Positions 35,029 to 43,205 of a stretch of DNA of 64,000 bases are shown in pieces; the first letter of the stretch is position 1; each line of letters opens with the position of its first letter. The stretch spans positions 1 through 64,000 of the forward strand of contig CAADGK010000016.1 of NCBI GenBank assembly GCA_900696515.1. Direction: 5' to 3'. Both the position numbers and the translations under genes were made by a program. The DNA is from an uncultured Nitrosospira sp. GTDB lineage: Bacteria > Nitrospirota > Nitrospiria > Nitrospirales > Nitrospiraceae. The notes under the pieces are model-generated. The model was not told the origin of the DNA, ran no database searches, and worked only from the letters and a program-made list of their open reading frames with translations.

Positions 35029-35311
35029 GAGACGCTCCTATCCCAGATCGAGTGCGATTACAGGTCTGTCGCTGTTCCACCATGTTTGACCTATCCCACC
35101 CAATCCCGATCATTCAGCGAAACATTGCCCCTCTCCTTCACTTCTTCTGTCGCATCGACCGTCGCCGTCGCGGAGATACCCGTGACATGCTCCCGCTACG
35201 AAAACGGACGGAAGCCGTTGCAGTCTAACATGAGCCCCCGTTTCTCTCACCTTGACAAAGCTTAAAACCGGGTGCTACCACCGTGTCATGGTGGGAGCTG
35301 ACCGTCATTCT

Positions 35312-36064
35312 ATGACTCACGATCCGCACACTCCGGCAAAGGTAGTCTCAACCTGGTCGGGCCAGGCGCGAGAAGATGCCGTCCAACGGATGTTCACCTC
35401 CATTGCCGGAGCCTACGACCTGAATAACACGCTCTTGAGTTTCGGGCTCCATTACTACTGGAAGAAGATTACCGCCTCCTACATTACTCCGGTCGGTCGA
35501 GGAACCGCCCTTGATGTGGGATCAGGCACAGCCGACCTTGCACTCCTGATCGAATCTCGAATGGGTCCGAAAGGCCGCGTGATCGCCTCGGATCTGAACC
35601 ATGCCATGCTCGCGGAAGGCCTCAAGAAGGTCGGCGACAAAGGCCTCGGCGACAAAATCACCTGCCTGCAGGCCAGTGCGGAACATCTCGGATTCAGTGA
35701 CAATACCTTCGATGCGGTCACGACCGGGTTCTGCATGCGGAACGTCGGGGATCTGCCGCAAGCCGTACGGGAAATTCGCCGGGTGATGAAGCCGGGGGGG
35801 CGCTTCGTGTGCCTGGAGTTCTCTCGCCCGATCTTCGGCTGGTTGAGAACGCTCTACGATTGGTATTCGTTCAAACTCTTGCCCTTCATCGGCACGATCG
35901 TCGCCCGTGACCGTACCGGCGTTTATGAATACCTTCCTGCATCGATCCGGACGTTTCCTGACCAAGAACGGTTGTGCCAGATCCTCCGCGATGCCGGATT
36001 TCGCCAAGTCTCGTACAAGAACCTCAGCGGCGGCATCGTCGCGATACACGTCGCAACGAAATAA
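35312..36064 (+). CDS. ubiE: Ubiquinone/menaquinone biosynthesis C-methyltransferase
   Basis: UbiE/MenG methylates demethylmenaquinone (or the ubiquinone precursor) using S-adenosylmethionine. The product, about 250 residues, has FTSIAGAYDLNNTLLSFGLHYYWKK (family motif near the start), the SAM-binding LDVGSGTADLALLI, ITCLQASAEHLGF, FDAVTTGFCMRNVGD and the C-terminal GGIVAIHVA. ATG 35312 is chosen, with GGGAG 14 bp upstream; ATG 35288 is an alternative. The TTG further upstream is part of TTGACA, a probable -35 box. Menaquinone use would suit a Nitrospira-type respiratory chain. Confidence 0.92.
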   Translation: MTHDPHTPAKVVSTWSGQAREDAVQRMFTSIAGAYDLNNTLLSFGLHYYWKKITASYITPVGRGTALDVGSGTADLALLIESRMGPKGRVIASDLNHAMLAEGLKKVGDKGLGDKITCLQASAEHLGFSDNTFDAVTTGFCMRNVGDLPQAVREIRRVMKPGGRFVCLEFSRPIFGWLRTLYDWYSFKLLPFIGTIVARDRTGVYEYLPASIRTFPDQERLCQILRDAGFRQVSYKNLSGGIVAIHVATK

Positions 36065-36159: not shown

Positions 36160-37785
36160 ATGAATTCAATCCTCTATATTTTTCTCCCCTGCAAGAAGGT
36201 TTATCCGATCGGGATCACCTACTTGGCGGACTTCATCCATCGGCGGAAGCCGGAGGTTCGGCAGCGCATCCTCGATCTCTCGTTGTTTCCGATCAACCAG
36301 CGCAGCCAAGCCATCCGTGACGCCGCGACGGAGTTCAAGCCGGACCTGGTCTGCTTTTCATGGCGCGACATCCAAATTTTTTCGCCGCATGAAGGCGACT
36401 CCTCGCTGGAACATGCCTTCAACTTCTATTTCGCCAGCAACCCGATCAAGCGCGTCGTCGCTTCGTTCGCGGGCATCAAACAGCTCTACCGCTACTACAG
36501 CCATATCTATACGATTCTGTCGTATCCGACACTGATTCGCAAAGAATTCCCGAAGGCTCAGATCATGATCGGCGGCGGGGCATTCACCGCGTTTGCCGAT
36601 CAACTGATCGAGAAGCTCCCGGAAGGCACGATCGGTATCCTGGGCGAAGGGGAAGATGCCATCCTCAAGCTCCTCGAAGGACGTTCGATCGACGACGAAC
36701 GCTATATCATCAAAGAAGGCGGACGGATCCGAAAGGGCTCCCATGGTTCGCCGGCGCTACTCGACGCCCCGGCCGTAGACCTGCCCTATCTGACCTCGAT
36801 CTTCCCACAATGGCGGGAATACCAAGGTGAATCAATTGGGGTGCAGTCGAAACGGGGCTGCCCCTATGATTGTGCCTTCTGTCTCTATCCCTACATTGAG
36901 GGTAAACGCGTGCGGTACCGACCAGCTGAAATGGTCGTGAAAGACATCTCCCAACATTATCATCAGTGGGGGACCCGTCGCTTTTGGTTTACCGATGCCC
37001 AATTCATTACGGGGAAGGAAGCCTATCCGCAATGTACGGAGATCATGGAGCGCATCATCAGCGAGAAGCTGGAAATCGAGTGGTCCGGCTATATCCGCAC
37101 CTCCTTGATCACGCCGGACTTCGCCAAGTTGATGGTTCGTTCCGGCGTGGGCGATCTGGAAGTCGCCATCACCTCCGGCTCGCAGGACGTACTGAACAAT
37201 CTCCACATGGGGTTCAAGCTGGAACGGCTCTATGACGGCTGTCGTTACCTGGCGGAGGCCGGGTTCAAGGGTAAGGTGATCCTCAACTATTCATTGAACA
37301 GCCCCAAGGAGACGGAGGAAACCCTGCTTCAGAGCGTCGAATCCTATAAAGTGGTGGCCTCGATTCTCGGCGAAGAACGAGTCTTCCCCTTGATGTTTTT
37401 CTTGGGCATCCAGCCCAACACCGACCTTGAACAGCGCCTATTGGAAGAGGGGTACCTGTCGGCCGGCTACAACCCTTTGATGTTGACGCCGACCAGTATC
37501 CGAAAGCTCCTCTATAATCCGGCTCCATTGAATTCATTCATCGCCAAAGCCTGCCTGCGTGCCTGGGAACGAAAGCAAGGAAGTCGTGATCCTCGCAAAT
37601 GGACGGGGTCCCTCTCGCAGACGGCTGACCAGTCAACCGCCTATGCGGATACAAACTTGAGCAAGGGGATTGAAGGCAATTCGGGACGAGATGCCCTCCT
37701 TTCCCTCGAAGAGATCCTTCGTTCCCGTCGACCGGTATCAGCCCCTTCCCAGACAGCTGACCCACGGGCAAGTTCCGTCGGTTAG
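36160..37785 (+). CDS. B12-binding-type radical SAM protein (BchE/MiaB-like class B architecture)
   Basis: A 541-residue protein. Residues about 1-180 resemble the cobalamin-binding Rossmann domain (YLADFIHRRKPEVR, FKPDLVCFSWRDIQ, IMIGGGAFTAFADQLIEKLP and ILGEGEDAILKLLEG) but lack the DxHxxG cobalt ligand, so cofactor binding is uncertain. The radical SAM core has CPYDCAFC with Cys234, 238 and 241 and continues to about 440. The C-terminal 80 residues are polar and poorly conserved in type. BchE, an anaerobic ring cyclase of chlorophyll synthesis, shares this layout. The substrate is unknown. It heads a cluster with two PCP_red-domain proteins. Confidence 0.84.
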   Translation: MNSILYIFLPCKKVYPIGITYLADFIHRRKPEVRQRILDLSLFPINQRSQAIRDAATEFKPDLVCFSWRDIQIFSPHEGDSSLEHAFNFYFASNPIKRVVASFAGIKQLYRYYSHIYTILSYPTLIRKEFPKAQIMIGGGAFTAFADQLIEKLPEGTIGILGEGEDAILKLLEGRSIDDERYIIKEGGRIRKGSHGSPALLDAPAVDLPYLTSIFPQWREYQGESIGVQSKRGCPYDCAFCLYPYIEGKRVRYRPAEMVVKDISQHYHQWGTRRFWFTDAQFITGKEAYPQCTEIMERIISEKLEIEWSGYIRTSLITPDFAKLMVRSGVGDLEVAITSGSQDVLNNLHMGFKLERLYDGCRYLAEAGFKGKVILNYSLNSPKETEETLLQSVESYKVVASILGEERVFPLMFFLGIQPNTDLEQRLLEEGYLSAGYNPLMLTPTSIRKLLYNPAPLNSFIAKACLRAWERKQGSRDPRKWTGSLSQTADQSTAYADTNLSKGIEGNSGRDALLSLEEILRSRRPVSAPSQTADPRASSVG

Positions 37786-37977: not shown

Positions 37978-37994
37978 GCGCCTTAAGGAGGCGC
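37978..37994 (+). promoter_or_regulatory. Hairpin that covers the ribosome-binding site of the Usp/PCP_red gene
   Basis: GCGCCT (37978-37983) and AGGCGC (37989-37994) pair around TAAGG. The strong Shine-Dalgarno AAGGAGG (37985-37991) lies in the loop and 3' stem, 7 bp before the ATG. This could limit translation until the stem opens. The suggestion rests only on the sequence. Confidence 0.4.
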
Positions 37995-37998
37995 CTCA

Positions 37999-40065
37999 AT
38001 GTATAAGACGATCTATATTCCGGTCGATAATTCCGACCATTCCAATACAGCAGTTGATATGGGTGTCCACCTGGCAAAAACTTTCGGCTCCAAAATTGTG
38101 GGAAGCCATGTCTATGCCGCGAAAATGCACGACAAGCGCTTCAAACAAATGGAAGCCGGTTTGCCGGAAGAGTATCACGATGAAACGGAGCTTGACCGCC
38201 AACGTCAAATCCATGATTCGCTGATCACGCGCGGCCTCCAAATCATCACCGACTCCTATCTGGATTACGTCGACAAGAAGTGCAACGAGGCCAATCTGCC
38301 GATCGAACGGCGATCGCTTGAGGGACGGAACTGGAAGGTCTTGTCCGAAGATATCAATACCAACGGCTACGATCTCGTGATCATGGGCGCCTTGGGCGTC
38401 GGTGCCGTCAAGGACAGCGTGATCGGAAGCAACACGGAACGTGTCGTTCGCCGTGTTCGCAACTCCGATATGCTGATCATCAAGAACACCCAGCCGATCA
38501 CAGGCGGCAAGATCGTCGTGGCCGTGGACGGAAGTCCCTATTCGTTCGGTGGCCTGATGACCGGGCTTGCGCTCGGGAAAGCCCTCAATATTCCGGTTGA
38601 GGCCATATCGGCGTTCGACCCCTACTTCCACTACGCCGCCTTCCACAGTATTTCCGGGGTGCTCAACGAAGAAGCGGGAAAAGTCTTCCGGTTCAAGGAG
38701 CAGGAAAAACTCCACGAGGAAATCATCGACAGCGGCTTGGCCAAGATCTATCAATCGCATCTGGACATCTCCCGGGAAATTGCGCAAGCCGAACAGACCG
38801 ACCTCAAAACCACGCTCCTTGACGGAAAAGCATTTGAAAAGATCATTCAGTACGTCCGCAAGGATGTCCCGGCCCTGCTGATCGTCGGCCGTATTGGTGT
38901 CCACAGCGACGAGGACATGGACGTCGGCAGCAACACCGAGAACTTGTTGCGCAGTGCGCCCTGTAACGTGCTCATCTCCAACCGCAAGTATGTTCCCCCG
39001 ATCGATACCCAGGCTGAGTACACCATCGCCTGGACCGAAGAGGCGTTGCGGCGGATGGAAAAGATTCCCGTCTTTGCTCGCGGCGTGGCGAAAACAGCAA
39101 TCCATCGGTATGCCATCGAGAAAGGTCATACCATTATCAGCAACACGGTGGTCGATGCCGCAGTGGGACACATTCTTCCGAAAGGTGCCATGGATGCCAT
39201 GCGGGCGCTTGGCGGAAGCTTGGATGCGGCGGGGATTGATCGCGACCGGATGCAGGCCGACGAAGGCGTGACAAAAGACCTCATGGGTCCGACCTTGAGC
39301 GGCATCATGACTCAGATCGTGGAAGAGAAGCCGAAGGAAATCAGCGCATCGACGCAGGCCTACCTTGACCGTATGGCACAGACCTATTTCGTCTGTGACG
39401 GGTGCGGGTATATCGGGAAAGGGGATACGCCGGTCAAATGCCCCGTGTGCAGTGCAGATGGAACCAAATTCAAGCAGGTGGATAAGAAGATTTTCGAAGT
39501 GGCGGCCACATCGGAAGGTGAACTGGAAACGGACGTGGCCTACGACGATGTGCCGATGCAATGGACCAAGGACGCGAAAGAGGCGATCCGTGCCGTCCCG
39601 GCCGGCTTCCAACGCAGACGGGCCAAGGCGAGGATTGAAAAGACCGCGCGGAAATTGGGGATGACGACCATCACGCTTGAATATGCGGCCCCGATGATCA
39701 AAGAAGCGGCATCGGAAGACTACACCCCGATTTTCTCCAATAAAGGCACTGGTACCGCCCCGGCAGCGGAAGGGATGCTGACTGCGGCCAATGGGAATGG
39801 AACGAACGGCCATGCTGAAAGCGCGTCGCCCTATACCTGGACGGACGAGGCACAGGCCAGATTGGATCGGGCGCCGGAAGGTTTCATGCGCGACTGCACC
39901 AAAGCTCTCATTCTCAAGCATGCCGAGAAAATCGGCGCGACCGTGATCACGCTTGAGGTCGCAAACGAGGGTATCGAACAGGCAAAGGGCTATATGGCGG
40001 AAGCGATGAAGACCGGCAACCTCAAGGATATGATCGCTGATCTCACCGGCAAGTCTTCGACTTGA
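37999..40065 (+). CDS. Fusion of two universal-stress domains, a rubredoxin-like zinc/iron ribbon and three PCP_red domains
   Basis: A 688-residue soluble protein with an unusual layout. Residues 1-170 and about 172-330 are two UspA-type nucleotide-binding domains (GALGVGAVKDSVIGSNTERV; IVVAVDGSPYSFGG; DVGSNTENLLRSAPCNVLI). Three copies of the PCP_red domain (C-terminal domain of light-independent protochlorophyllide reductase subunit B) lie at about 342-392, 518-570 and 611-665, each opening with a WT/WTxxA motif and a basic helix. Between the first and second is a ribbon with two CxxC pairs (VCDGCGY and CPVCSADG), residues about 465-490. The next gene also ends in a PCP_red domain. Function unknown; redox or tetrapyrrole handling is an inference. 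Confidence 0.85.
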   Translation: MYKTIYIPVDNSDHSNTAVDMGVHLAKTFGSKIVGSHVYAAKMHDKRFKQMEAGLPEEYHDETELDRQRQIHDSLITRGLQIITDSYLDYVDKKCNEANLPIERRSLEGRNWKVLSEDINTNGYDLVIMGALGVGAVKDSVIGSNTERVVRRVRNSDMLIIKNTQPITGGKIVVAVDGSPYSFGGLMTGLALGKALNIPVEAISAFDPYFHYAAFHSISGVLNEEAGKVFRFKEQEKLHEEIIDSGLAKIYQSHLDISREIAQAEQTDLKTTLLDGKAFEKIIQYVRKDVPALLIVGRIGVHSDEDMDVGSNTENLLRSAPCNVLISNRKYVPPIDTQAEYTIAWTEEALRRMEKIPVFARGVAKTAIHRYAIEKGHTIISNTVVDAAVGHILPKGAMDAMRALGGSLDAAGIDRDRMQADEGVTKDLMGPTLSGIMTQIVEEKPKEISASTQAYLDRMAQTYFVCDGCGYIGKGDTPVKCPVCSADGTKFKQVDKKIFEVAATSEGELETDVAYDDVPMQWTKDAKEAIRAVPAGFQRRRAKARIEKTARKLGMTTITLEYAAPMIKEAASEDYTPIFSNKGTGTAPAAEGMLTAANGNGTNGHAESASPYTWTDEAQARLDRAPEGFMRDCTKALILKHAEKIGATVITLEVANEGIEQAKGYMAEAMKTGNLKDMIADLTGKSST

Positions 40066-40066
40066 G

Positions 40067-40153
40067 TTTTGAGTTGTGAATGTTGAGTTGTGAGTTGCGG
40101 CAGCTCTCCTAAGGGTCCGAACCAAACACTAAAGACTCATCACTCAAGACTGT
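40067..40153. repeat. Inverted heptamer arrays of the TTGTGAR type between the fusion gene and the radical SAM gene
   Basis: The left arm (about 40067-40100) is built of TTGTGAA/TGTTGAG/TTGTGAG units. The right arm (about 40121-40153) is CACTAAAGACTCATCACTC-like and complementary. The unit sequence is distinct from the TGGTCAT class, while the layout and position between stop and start are the same. Confidence 0.72.
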
Positions 40154-40154
40154 T

Positions 40155-41558
40155 ATGGGTAAATCTCTCCCCATCTTCAACGGCTCGTCGCTGTCGGGTG
40201 CTTTCGGATCGCTTCCGCAGCAAATTTCACAGTTCTTCACCCCGACTCCAAAGGGAGACGGACCGTTCGATGGCCGGACTGTGGACGACTTCAAACCCTA
40301 CCTTGTCGCGCTCAACCTGACCAAGCGCTGTAACCTCAAGTGCGATCATTGTTATCTCGATGCCACGACAAAAGCCGCAGGCGGCGATGACGAACTCTCC
40401 ACCGAAGAATGCTACCGATTGATCGATCAGATTGCCCAGGTCAACAAGGGGTGCCTCCTGGTGATTACCGGCGGAGAACCGCTGGTCCGCCCCGACATTC
40501 TTGACATCGCACGCTACGCCGTGAAGCTCGGTTTCATGGTGGTCTTTGGGACCAACGGCATGCTGATCGATGACCGGATGGCCAAGACCCTTGTTGAAAT
40601 CGGTGTGATGGGTGTTGGAATCAGCATCGATTCGCTGGACGCCGCCAAGCATAATTCCTTTCGTGGCGTCCCCGGCGCCTGGGAAGCCGCGGTGGCGGGG
40701 ATTGAAGCAAGCAAGCGAAACGGCCTGCAGTTCCAAGTCCATTTCAGCGCACAGCCGATGAATTACAAGGAACTGCCGGAAGTCATCACCTGGGCCCATG
40801 AACTTGGAGCCCGCGTGCTCAACGTTTTCTTCATGGTCTGCACGGGTCGAGGTGAAGAACTGACGGATATTACTCCGGCTCAGTACGAAGAGGTACTTGG
40901 CTATCTGATTGACTGCCAGGATAGTTACAAAGGCATGCTGATCCGAGCCCGTTGTGCCCCACACTTTAAACGGCTGGCCTACGAGAAAGATCCAAACTCT
41001 CCGATCACGAAGGCGACCGGGTACATGGGAGGCGGATGCCTCGCCGGTACGAACTATGCCCGAGTCACACCGAACGGCGAGCTCACCCCTTGTCCCTACA
41101 TGCCGCTGTCCGCGGGGAACTTGCGTCAGCATAGTTTTGTCGATCTCTGGGAACGCTCGGATGTCTTCAACTCGTTCCGCTATCCGCAGCTGAAGGGAAA
41201 ATGCGGGGACTGTGAATACAGCGACATCTGCGGCGGCTGCCGTGCACGACCCTATGTCGACCATGGAGACTGGCTGGACGAGGACCAGTGGTGTCTATAC
41301 GAGCCGAAGGGCGGCGAAAAGATCAAGGTGGCATTCAACGTCGCAGAAGAGACCGATGTCACGTGGGACGAAGCCTCTGCACTCAGACTGAGTCGGATCC
41401 CCTATTTCCTTCGTGCCATGGTGAAAAAGGGCGTGGAAAAGCACGCCCGTGAAAACAATATCTCGATGATTACGGTCGAACTGATGGAGGAATTGAGGAA
41501 AAAGCGGTTCGGCAACGACGCGCCGGTGTTCAATTTTGACGTAAAGGGCAAGGGGTAA
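40155..41558 (+). CDS. Radical SAM/SPASM protein with C-terminal PCP_red domain (NirJ/AhbC/PqqE-like)
   Basis: A 467-residue protein. Cys59, 63 and 66 (CNLKCDHC) bind the radical SAM cluster, with GGEPLVRPD following. A SPASM-type region holds the auxiliary-cluster cysteines (GGGCLAG..., LTPCPYMPLSAGN, CGDCEYSDICGGCRA and a later WCLYEP). Residues about 395-455 are a PCP_red domain (WDEASALRLSRIPYFLRAMV, VEKHAREN). The closest well-known relatives by motif are NirJ and AhbC/AhbD of haem d1 and alternative haem synthesis, and PqqE-type peptide enzymes. The PCP_red tail links it to the upstream fusion protein and argues for a tetrapyrrole substrate, as an inference. Confidence 0.85.
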   Translation: MGKSLPIFNGSSLSGAFGSLPQQISQFFTPTPKGDGPFDGRTVDDFKPYLVALNLTKRCNLKCDHCYLDATTKAAGGDDELSTEECYRLIDQIAQVNKGCLLVITGGEPLVRPDILDIARYAVKLGFMVVFGTNGMLIDDRMAKTLVEIGVMGVGISIDSLDAAKHNSFRGVPGAWEAAVAGIEASKRNGLQFQVHFSAQPMNYKELPEVITWAHELGARVLNVFFMVCTGRGEELTDITPAQYEEVLGYLIDCQDSYKGMLIRARCAPHFKRLAYEKDPNSPITKATGYMGGGCLAGTNYARVTPNGELTPCPYMPLSAGNLRQHSFVDLWERSDVFNSFRYPQLKGKCGDCEYSDICGGCRARPYVDHGDWLDEDQWCLYEPKGGEKIKVAFNVAEETDVTWDEASALRLSRIPYFLRAMVKKGVEKHARENNISMITVELMEELRKKRFGNDAPVFNFDVKGKG

Positions 41559-41624
41559 GGCGTCAGGGGTGAATTGCCGAGGACCAGCTTTTAAGCAACC
41601 CCTCACCCCTTACAACTCACTCCT
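41548..41624. repeat. Inverted heptamer arrays overlapping the radical SAM stop codon
   Basis: The left arm (41548-41576, AAGGGGTAAGGCGTCAGGGGTGA) supplies the last codons and TAA stop of the radical SAM gene. The right arm (41600-41624, CCCCTCACCCCTTACAACTC) is complementary. The loop is about 24 bp. Units are of the GGGTAAG/GGGTGAA type, close to those inside the HerA-like gene. Confidence 0.74.
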
Positions 41625-41638
41625 TGCTGGTTCTCACG

Positions 41639-42148
41639 ATGGATACTCTTGAAAGCATTGCGACCGACCTCAATATCCTGATTCCGATCATCAATCATTG
41701 GTTTCATCTGCTCTCGGCGATCATTTGGATCGGCGGTCTCGCGTTTCTCGTCATGGCGGTCACCCCGGGGCTGGAGAAAGCCGTTCCCAAGGAGCAGGTC
41801 AAACCCATCACGGATATTTTTTATCGGCACTATAAAAAAATCGCCGGCATTTTACTCGTCGTCCTGCTGTTCACCGGCGGCGTGAATCTCCACTACGTCA
41901 ATCAGGTCATTACCTCACAAACCGGAAACGGAGTCCAGCACCATTCCAAGTATCTGATGGTCTTCATGATCAAACTGCTGCTCGTGCTGGGGCTTCTGAC
42001 GCTGTTTCTCTACACCGTTATCTTCAAGTCGGATGATGAGGCAGAAGAGGGAGAGTCCTATGAGGCCATTCCCTTCCAGCGCGCGGCCCTCTGGATGGGA
42101 TTTTTCATTATTCTGTGCGCCGCCGCCATGAAACATCTGCACCAGTAG
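41639..42148 (+). CDS. CopD/HemJ-like four-helix membrane protein
   Basis: A 169-residue inner-membrane protein with four or five hydrophobic helices. The first helix NHWFHLLSAIIWIGGLAFLVM has the His-rich start seen in CopD-domain and HemJ-type proteins; other histidines are at the third helix (VQHHSKYLMVFMIK, with a conserved-type Lys) and at the C-terminus (MKHLHQ). HemJ is a protoporphyrinogen oxidase that binds haem. Whether this protein is HemJ-like in function or a copper-related protein cannot be decided. Its place after two PCP_red genes makes haem chemistry plausible. ATG 41639 is preferred to an upstream TTG. Confidence 0.75.
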   Translation: MDTLESIATDLNILIPIINHWFHLLSAIIWIGGLAFLVMAVTPGLEKAVPKEQVKPITDIFYRHYKKIAGILLVVLLFTGGVNLHYVNQVITSQTGNGVQHHSKYLMVFMIKLLLVLGLLTLFLYTVIFKSDDEAEEGESYEAIPFQRAALWMGFFIILCAAAMKHLHQ

Positions 42149-42437: not shown

Positions 42438-43205
42438 TCACTTGGATCGGTTGAGCCCGAGCACGCGATTGAAGACGGTGGCGAAGCCGAAATAGCCGAA
42501 GGAATCTTTCAGGTTCGAATAGAGCCGCTTGACGGTCCCCATCTCAGGATTGGTGACGTACTCCATCGTCAGCGCAATCCGCTCTTCGCCTTCGCCAAGA
42601 GGCGTGACCGCGTGCCAGAGCTTATCCCCGTTGAAAATCACCATATCCCCGGGTTCGGTGATCAACTCAAGATGACGGGGCTGTTTCGTCGGATGATCTT
42701 TGAAAAGCTCACAGACGAGCTTGCATTGAGTTGATCGATCCACCAAGCCCATGAGAATGGTATAGCGCGCACCGTTGTAATAGGACGTATCGTAATGGAA
42801 ACCGATATGGTCACCCGGCTCCGTATAGTAGTAGAGGGCGCAGGAATGAGGGTCGTTGTCCGGGCAGAACATCAGTTTCGCCTGCACGAGACGATCTAAG
42901 AATCCTCTGAACGAGTCGGCACGATATAATTCAAGAAAGCGCGGAGCTTTTTCCTGCACCGTGTAGTAGCTGACACTCCCGCCCTTCTTATGGCCGGGGA
43001 TGTAATTACGATTCAGCTCGGATTTGACGGCCTGGGCTTGAGGGACGAAGACCTCTTCGACAAAGGCACGGGGCAGAAATTGCTTGATGACCAAAAACTC
43101 GTTTTGCTCCCAATACTCCTGGTGGAGACGGTCGAAATCTAACCGCGCCACCGCTTGATCGACCGCTTCTTCTATGCTGTTCGCGAGATTTGGCACCTGT
43201 CTCAA
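42438..43205 (-). CDS. 2-oxoglutarate/Fe(II)-dependent oxygenase-like protein (phytanoyl/prolyl hydroxylase fold)
   Basis: A 255-residue protein. HIGFHYDTSYYNGARYTILMGL supplies the HxD metal motif (His-Tyr-Asp), and KLWHAVTPLGEGEERIALTMEYV supplies the distal His and the Arg that holds 2-oxoglutarate, all on a double-stranded beta-helix. The N-terminal 70 residues are helical. The substrate is unknown. The start is uncertain: TTG 43205 opens the frame and GTG 43196 is an alternative; neither has a strong ribosome site. A heptamer array lies immediately upstream. Confidence 0.8.
   Translation of the reverse strand: MRQVPNLANSIEEAVDQAVARLDFDRLHQEYWEQNEFLVIKQFLPRAFVEEVFVPQAQAVKSELNRNYIPGHKKGGSVSYYTVQEKAPRFLELYRADSFRGFLDRLVQAKLMFCPDNDPHSCALYYYTEPGDHIGFHYDTSYYNGARYTILMGLVDRSTQCKLVCELFKDHPTKQPRHLELITEPGDMVIFNGDKLWHAVTPLGEGEERIALTMEYVTNPEMGTVKRLYSNLKDSFGYFGFATVFNRVLGLNRSK

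Follow-up and report, generated by a model that had tools for sequence, protein, structure and literature searches.

A tandem Usp protein with PCP_red modules is paired with an AhbD/NirJ-type radical SAM enzyme in Nitrospirota and co-occurs with bd-like oxidase genes

The window, that is, the whole stretch of 64,000 nucleotides that was analyzed, contains an open reading frame at 37999..40065 (plus strand, as for all features of this gene; ATG start, TGA stop), which encodes a protein of 688 aa with the domain order Usp-Usp-PCP_red-Cys4 knuckle-PCP_red-PCP_red. A ribosome-binding site, AAGGAGG, can be read from the sequence at 37985..37991, seven bases 5' of the ATG. Pfam analysis gave 112.1 bits for Usp (PF00582; cut-off 24) in two stretches and 110.1 bits overall for PCP_red (PF08369) in three stretches. 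The first Usp domain covers residues 1–155 (37999..38463) and the second about residues 172–327 (38512..38979), with limits taken from the structural model. The three PCP_red copies are found at residues 343–389 (39025..39165), 520–566 (39556..39696), and 612–658 (39832..39972) and score 54.3, 41.3, and 35.7 bits, all above the cut-off of 32.5 bits alone. Of 47 positions, 20 are identical between copies 2 and 3, and copy 1 shares 7 and 10 with them. Residues 464–492 (39388..39474) form a rubredoxin-like knuckle (CxxC-x11-CxxC) with Cys residues 466, 469, 481, and 484, which might be a structural zinc or iron site; it matches RUBY_RBDX (rubrerythrin-type rubredoxin) with 25.4 bits, just below the cut-off of 26.5.

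A preliminary description of the locus had read the same order, with a rubredoxin in the place of the knuckle, and had proposed profile searches and structure prediction as checks. The order is borne out by the Pfam scan, since both profiles score above cut-off in one protein, each PCP_red repeat does so separately, and the knuckle falls just short as given above. The layout was also said to belong to no described family, and we agree: no description of a Usp/PCP_red fusion in Nitrospira was found in a literature search of open-licence papers. The domains are known, and neither the architecture nor the system is described in the open-licence literature searched. A long minus-strand open reading frame (37996–40125) lies over the fusion gene and is a shadow frame, since it is the plus frame that is conserved across the phylum.

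Of 198 Nitrospirota genomes, 62 have the full-length fusion protein, with about 60–98% identity, and all 62 belong to the window's class; this distribution rules out a chance or frame artefact. If the C-terminal piece in G112 is counted, 63 of the 65 genomes of the class have the protein, the two exceptions being G163 and G187. It is therefore a highly conserved core protein of the class, and in three class members it has five PCP_red copies. Relatives were found in 21 of the 133 genomes outside the class. Some families have shorter forms with between one and three PCP_red copies, others tandem Usp proteins without PCP_red.

The AlphaFold2 model of the fusion protein, which is of middling quality (mean pLDDT 70.7), has tandem Usps as its nearest solved structures. 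The best Foldseek match was Rv2623 (E 4.7e-16), and ATP-bound TTHA0350 gave a TM-score of 0.80–0.83 by its length. The ATP-binding motif G-x2-G-x9-G-S/T is present at residues 130–144 (G130-x2-G133-x9-G143-S144) and 297–311 (G297-x2-G300-x9-G310-S311). The protein hence shares two Usp domains, ATP motifs and fold with tandem Usps such as Rv2623, TTHA0350, and UspE, but it differs from them in a long helical insert with invariant His and Glu residues, in the PCP_red tail and in a fixed pairing with a radical SAM gene.

An alignment of 15 Usp proteins (seven with PCP_red and eight without) showed which residues beside the ATP motifs are invariant. These are D10, H37, H44, M51, E52, E62, Q68, R69, and H72 in the first part and D207, H211, E236, H239, D244, and H302 in the second. 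None of 11 ordinary tandem Usps of the phylum has His at 44, 72, 211, 239, or 302 or Glu at 52, and their ATP motif glycines are kept almost throughout. H37 is common to 8 of these 11, and Glu 62/236 and Asp 207/244 occur in a few, so that these residues are not family-specific. What is family-specific is H44, E52, and H72 in the first domain and H211, H239, and H302 in the second. Judged from the alignment, the Usp half is a distinct subfamily with invariant His/Glu residues. Both domains repeat one local pattern, His-x3-Phe and Gln-(Arg/Glu)-x2-His, and this repetition suggests a putative twofold ligand site.

The intact ATP motifs and the structural match to Rv2623 and ATP-bound TTHA0350 would also fit a sensor or regulator of the Usp type: a lack of ATP or oxygen would be sensed by the Usp half, and the PCP_red tail would attach to haem enzymes and tune them, with no chemistry of its own. 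Several UspA proteins of Nitrospira marina are among those that rise most at low oxygen according to an excerpt of PMC8115632, in which it is not stated whether the fusion protein is included. However, the His/Glu set is kept down to about 31–35% identity, and this, together with the strict pairing with one enzyme described below, exceeds what is seen for the regulatory Usps of the phylum. We therefore consider a sensor or regulator unlikely.

The next gene (40155..41558, plus strand) encodes a radical SAM/SPASM enzyme of the AhbD/NirJ group with a C-terminal PCP_red domain (residues 402–448). The third gene of the cluster (41624..42148, plus strand) encodes a small DUF4149/CopD/HemJ-like membrane protein, which scores 14.1 bits with HemJ (TIGR00701), below the cut-off of 138. 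Among the best 80 of 561 relatives, nearly all labelled Nitrospira or Nitrospirota (a Nitrospinota label for L136 is probably a naming matter), 70 loci had enough downstream sequence to be tested, and in all 70 the fusion gene is followed on the same strand by the gene for the PCP_red-tailed enzyme; the small membrane gene then follows in 60 of 62 named loci. Of the 40 phylum-wide loci, 34 gave a usable Usp match and 32 could be tested for pairing; the enzyme gene is next to the Usp gene in 27 of the 32 and in one more with reversed order (L066), the exceptions being L053, L057, L065, and L071. The pair is also apart in G157 and G054. Eight distant Usps without PCP_red keep the His/Glu motif, and at least seven of these eight adjoin the enzyme gene, so the Usp protein and the enzyme are the older unit. 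The pairing itself we hold with high confidence.

Just upstream of the fusion gene the window contains two further genes on the plus strand. The gene at 35252–36064 encodes the methyl-plastoquinone methyltransferase MpqE (402.7 bits, cut-off 335). The product of the one at 36160–37785 is a radical SAM protein of the B12-binding type, for which the cyanobacterial slr0320 family is the nearest match (447 bits, cut-off 775). Among the best 80 of 561 relatives these two genes were seen in 49 of 63 and 48 of 67 named loci, as would be expected if the cluster were part of methyl-plastoquinone synthesis. Across the phylum only 6 of 27 and 6 of 28 loci show this arrangement, while the pairing of Usp protein and radical SAM-PCP_red enzyme persists. 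Methyl-plastoquinone synthesis was consequently rejected as the main link, and we find it very improbable that the cluster belongs to it.

The partner enzyme scores 321.4 bits with NirJ2 (TIGR04055) and 315.6 bits with AhbD (TIGR04545), both below the cut-offs of 500 bits. With TIGR04545 the PCP_red-tailed enzymes reach 291–338 bits and the AhbDs of the phylum 443–449, so all fall below that cut-off. The Fe-S cysteines of AhbD (59, 63, 66, 267, 295, 313, 350, 353, 359, 362, and 380) are kept in 24 of 24 rows of the comparison, from which G049 was left out. In a tree of 32 proteins, calculated with no outgroup, the 25 PCP_red-tailed enzymes split from the seven AhbDs of the phylum with support 100/100, and the grouping of the rows, 25 against 7, corresponds to one change. 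The invariant positions N54, Y67, N223, F226, R303, and T311 differ between the tailed enzyme and AhbD. The enzyme thus resembles AhbD (haem b synthase) and NirJ/NirJ2 (haem d1 synthesis) in the radical SAM/SPASM fold and in all Fe-S cysteines, but it lies below both curated cut-offs, forms its own clade, has a PCP_red tail and keeps other invariant residues.

A normal AhbD and a PCP_red-tailed enzyme are both present in G111, G176, G156, and G062, where AhbD-like matches below 300 bits were counted as AhbD (except in G030, where a piece at a contig end was counted as the paralogue being present). The tailed enzyme is therefore a paralogue and not the haem b synthase itself. The window's genome contains a ferrochelatase (265.7 bits) with an adjoining HemY-type oxidase (313.1 bits) and four chlorite dismutase-family proteins, and its best HemN match has 147.6 bits, below the cut-off of 324.95. 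Judged from these matches, the organism appears to make haem b via the coproporphyrin route without the Usp/enzyme system. The pair might still be an oxygen-independent route from coproheme to haem b that replaces AhbD at low oxygen and makes no new haem. The conserved AhbD cysteines would fit this, as would the window's genome, which has no other close AhbD-like protein and whose ChdC-type proteins depend on peroxide chemistry, as described for coproheme decarboxylation by HemQ in an excerpt of PMC5157759. The four genomes with both proteins, the gap in TIGR04545 score to the AhbDs of the phylum and the six different active-site neighbours all argue against it, and such a replacement seems quite improbable to us.

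AhbD and NirJ act on tetrapyrrole propionates (PMC7242693, excerpt). Given the group to which the partner enzyme belongs, its own substrate is probably a tetrapyrrole as well.

Five proteins of the window's genome together have 12 PCP_red copies. Besides the fusion protein and its radical SAM partner, these are one protein with four copies and two of the zinc-ribbon-like type with two each. Solved PCP_red domains are available as 2kru, 3aek, and 8vqi. A model of a four-copy sister protein, likewise of middling quality (mean pLDDT 66.0), matches 2kru with an rmsd of 1.5 over 53 columns; the likeness to 2kru and 2l09 is one of shape, with E-values above 0.05 and a probability of 0.99–1.00. The solved relatives are the tails of BchB/ChlB and the single-domain protein Asr4154, in line with the preliminary description, in which PCP_red was known mainly as the tail of BchB. 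The substrate of BchB is protochlorophyllide, and nothing on the role of its tail was found in the DPOR papers searched. The fusion protein has the PCP_red domain in common with BchB/ChlB (dark-operative protochlorophyllide reductase) but is without the nitrogenase-like part, as only the tail matches (PRK02910, 67.6 bits; cut-off 509).

PCP_red was also found fused to a domain of the chlorite dismutase/coproheme decarboxylase family, in a protein of the Nitrospirota family f18 (L211:4036–5061, plus strand; Pfam scan of this one protein). Twelve further f18 proteins align with it over nearly the full length with 47–74% identity, giving a fusion in 13 of 13 proteins compared full length; these come from 13 of the 15 f18 genomes in which PCP_red was matched. 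In the five f18 genomes searched, the fused protein is the sole member of the chlorite dismutase family. As PCP_red thus occurs on three unrelated enzymes linked to tetrapyrroles, a tetrapyrrole role for the domain is likely, as far as domain composition can tell.

SPASM domains are common in peptide-modifying enzymes. The presence of this domain, and of the pair in operons with respiratory subunits (see below), could mean that the target of the radical SAM enzyme is a protein or peptide, such as a subunit of nitrite oxidoreductase or of the bd-like oxidase, with the PCP_red copies as plain docking units. Among NCBIfam models, however, the enzyme scores best with NirJ2 and AhbD, which are tetrapyrrole enzymes, and far lower with peptide maturases, and elsewhere PCP_red sits on BchB and on the chlorite dismutase-family protein. 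A protein or peptide target consequently seems improbable compared with a tetrapyrrole.

Several variations on the PCP_red proteins were seen. The radical SAM partner at L060:5714–7906 (minus strand) carries not one but three PCP_red copies. Two-copy zinc-ribbon-like proteins are encoded at L010:17949–18671 (minus strand) and at L012:9376–9867 (minus strand), the latter next to two bd-like oxidase genes and the gene for a DUF420 membrane protein. Between the genes for a four-copy and a zinc-ribbon PCP_red protein, L055:8566–9252 (minus strand) encodes a haem-oxygenase-like iron-containing redox enzyme (PF14518, 96.7 bits). Proteins with a zinc ribbon and a single PCP_red copy (L073:6874–7275, minus strand; L074:7051–7443, plus strand) directly adjoin a protein of 530 aa, which by eye looks like a B12-binding radical SAM enzyme.

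The terminal oxidase of Nitrospira is described as enigmatic, with bd-like proteins whose cofactors and electron donors are unclear (excerpts of PMC6606698, PMC3578206, and PMC12342949). The bd-like clusters are conserved among Nitrospira, Nitrospina, and anammox bacteria, with unclear function (PMC6606698, PMC3578206, in the same excerpts), and the name OR-N is taken from the excerpt of PMC12342949. A bd-like match was found in 86 of the 198 genomes, i.e., in all 65 of the window's class and in 21 of the 133 others. Outside the class, the Usp protein and the bd-like gene occur together in 20 genomes, Usp alone in 1, bd-like alone in 1, and neither in 111. For the enzyme and the bd-like gene the numbers are 19, 1 (enzyme alone), 2 (bd-like alone), and 111, and for Usp and enzyme 20, 1 (Usp alone), 0 (enzyme alone), and 112. 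Fisher tests gave P from 1e-19 to 1e-22 for the three co-occurrences, values that ignore shared ancestry and indicate scale only. In these presence calls, G021 and G030 rest on partial matches, the enzyme of G197 is cut short and the bd-like match of G002 is weak (5e-15).

Presence and absence of the genes also coincide within the mixed families f25, f26, f27, and f30. The exceptions are G163, with enzyme and bd-like gene and no Usp match of note, G008, with the enzyme and no bd-like match, and G069 and G033, with bd-like genes and no enzyme, the bd-like match of G033 being weak (E 1.3e-7). In three distant families (L066, L067, and L068) a bd-like oxidase gene comes directly after the Usp/enzyme pair, at distances of 22, 48, and 37 bp, and is followed by two cytochromes c and a type II DMSO reductase alpha gene. 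A TorD-like chaperone is part of the runs in L067 and L068, and a DMSO reductase iron-sulphur subunit was seen in L066. In L060 the pair comes after cytochrome c and bd-like genes. The window's genome has no bd-like gene next to the pair, but has a zinc-ribbon PCP_red protein adjoining two bd-like genes. The genes are far apart in G062 and G083, so linkage alone does not account for the co-occurrence. Since bd-like genes also mark aerobic or microaerobic respiration, their co-occurrence with the pair may be indirect.

Nitrite oxidoreductase was considered as the main partner and rejected. The type II DMSO reductase alpha gene coincides with the enzyme much less closely, with counts of 7/13/4/109 of 133 genomes, from both to neither (P 1.4e-4), and it was found in none of the nine class members outside Nitrospirales, all of which have bd-like genes. 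The bd-like clusters of nitrite oxidizers (OR-N CydAA', alternative NxrC) co-occur with the pair and share a gene run with it in some families, but no Usp, radical SAM or PCP_red genes were found in the parts of the published accounts of these clusters that were searched.

Taken together, we propose that the fusion protein binds ATP and partners the radical SAM enzyme, and that this enzyme tailors a haem-type tetrapyrrole for bd-like oxidases or hands it over, a reading that as a whole falls slightly short of an even chance. The Usp half would bind ATP and use its His/Glu residues to bind a metal or a haem-type ligand; the two matching sets, one per Usp domain, probably hold this ligand at the pseudo-twofold interface. 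The PCP_red copies may be small helical modules that couple tetrapyrrole enzymes to one another or to their substrate, and as they are present on both partners they might bring Usp protein, enzyme and tetrapyrrole together. The enzyme could then alter a side chain of the tetrapyrrole or pass its product along, and the small membrane protein might provide an exit toward the bd-like oxidases, so that the system would supply a haem-type cofactor needed by these oxygen reductases. We infer ligand, substrate, reaction and delivery from the conserved residues, the enzyme group and the gene associations, and a role of the pair for the bd-like oxidases in particular is tentative. Going further, the pair might make or install a new haem with a modified side chain or a reduced ring, reserved for the bd-like oxygen reductases of nitrite-oxidizing and related Nitrospirota, with the Usp half as an ATP-using tetrapyrrole- or metal-binding enzyme component and not a stress regulator; this stronger version is doubtful.

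Nitrospira are dominant nitrite oxidizers, and a haem-type radical SAM pair that tracks bd-like genes would be a direct handle on oxidase assembly and haem content. PCP_red, so far named only after BchB, would gain a general role in tetrapyrrole enzymes, and Usp domains would, if the proposal is true, serve as part of a biosynthetic machine.

Downstream in the window, on the minus strand at 42438–43205, lies a gene for a 2-oxoglutarate oxygenase matching the halogenase HalD (32.2 bits, cut-off 26). A family of proteins of ∼220–250 aa, with no Pfam match above cut-off, is encoded at four loci beside the gene for the radical SAM or the Usp protein (L069:9888–10649, L070:6051–6785, L071:9026–9685, and L072:10560–11291).
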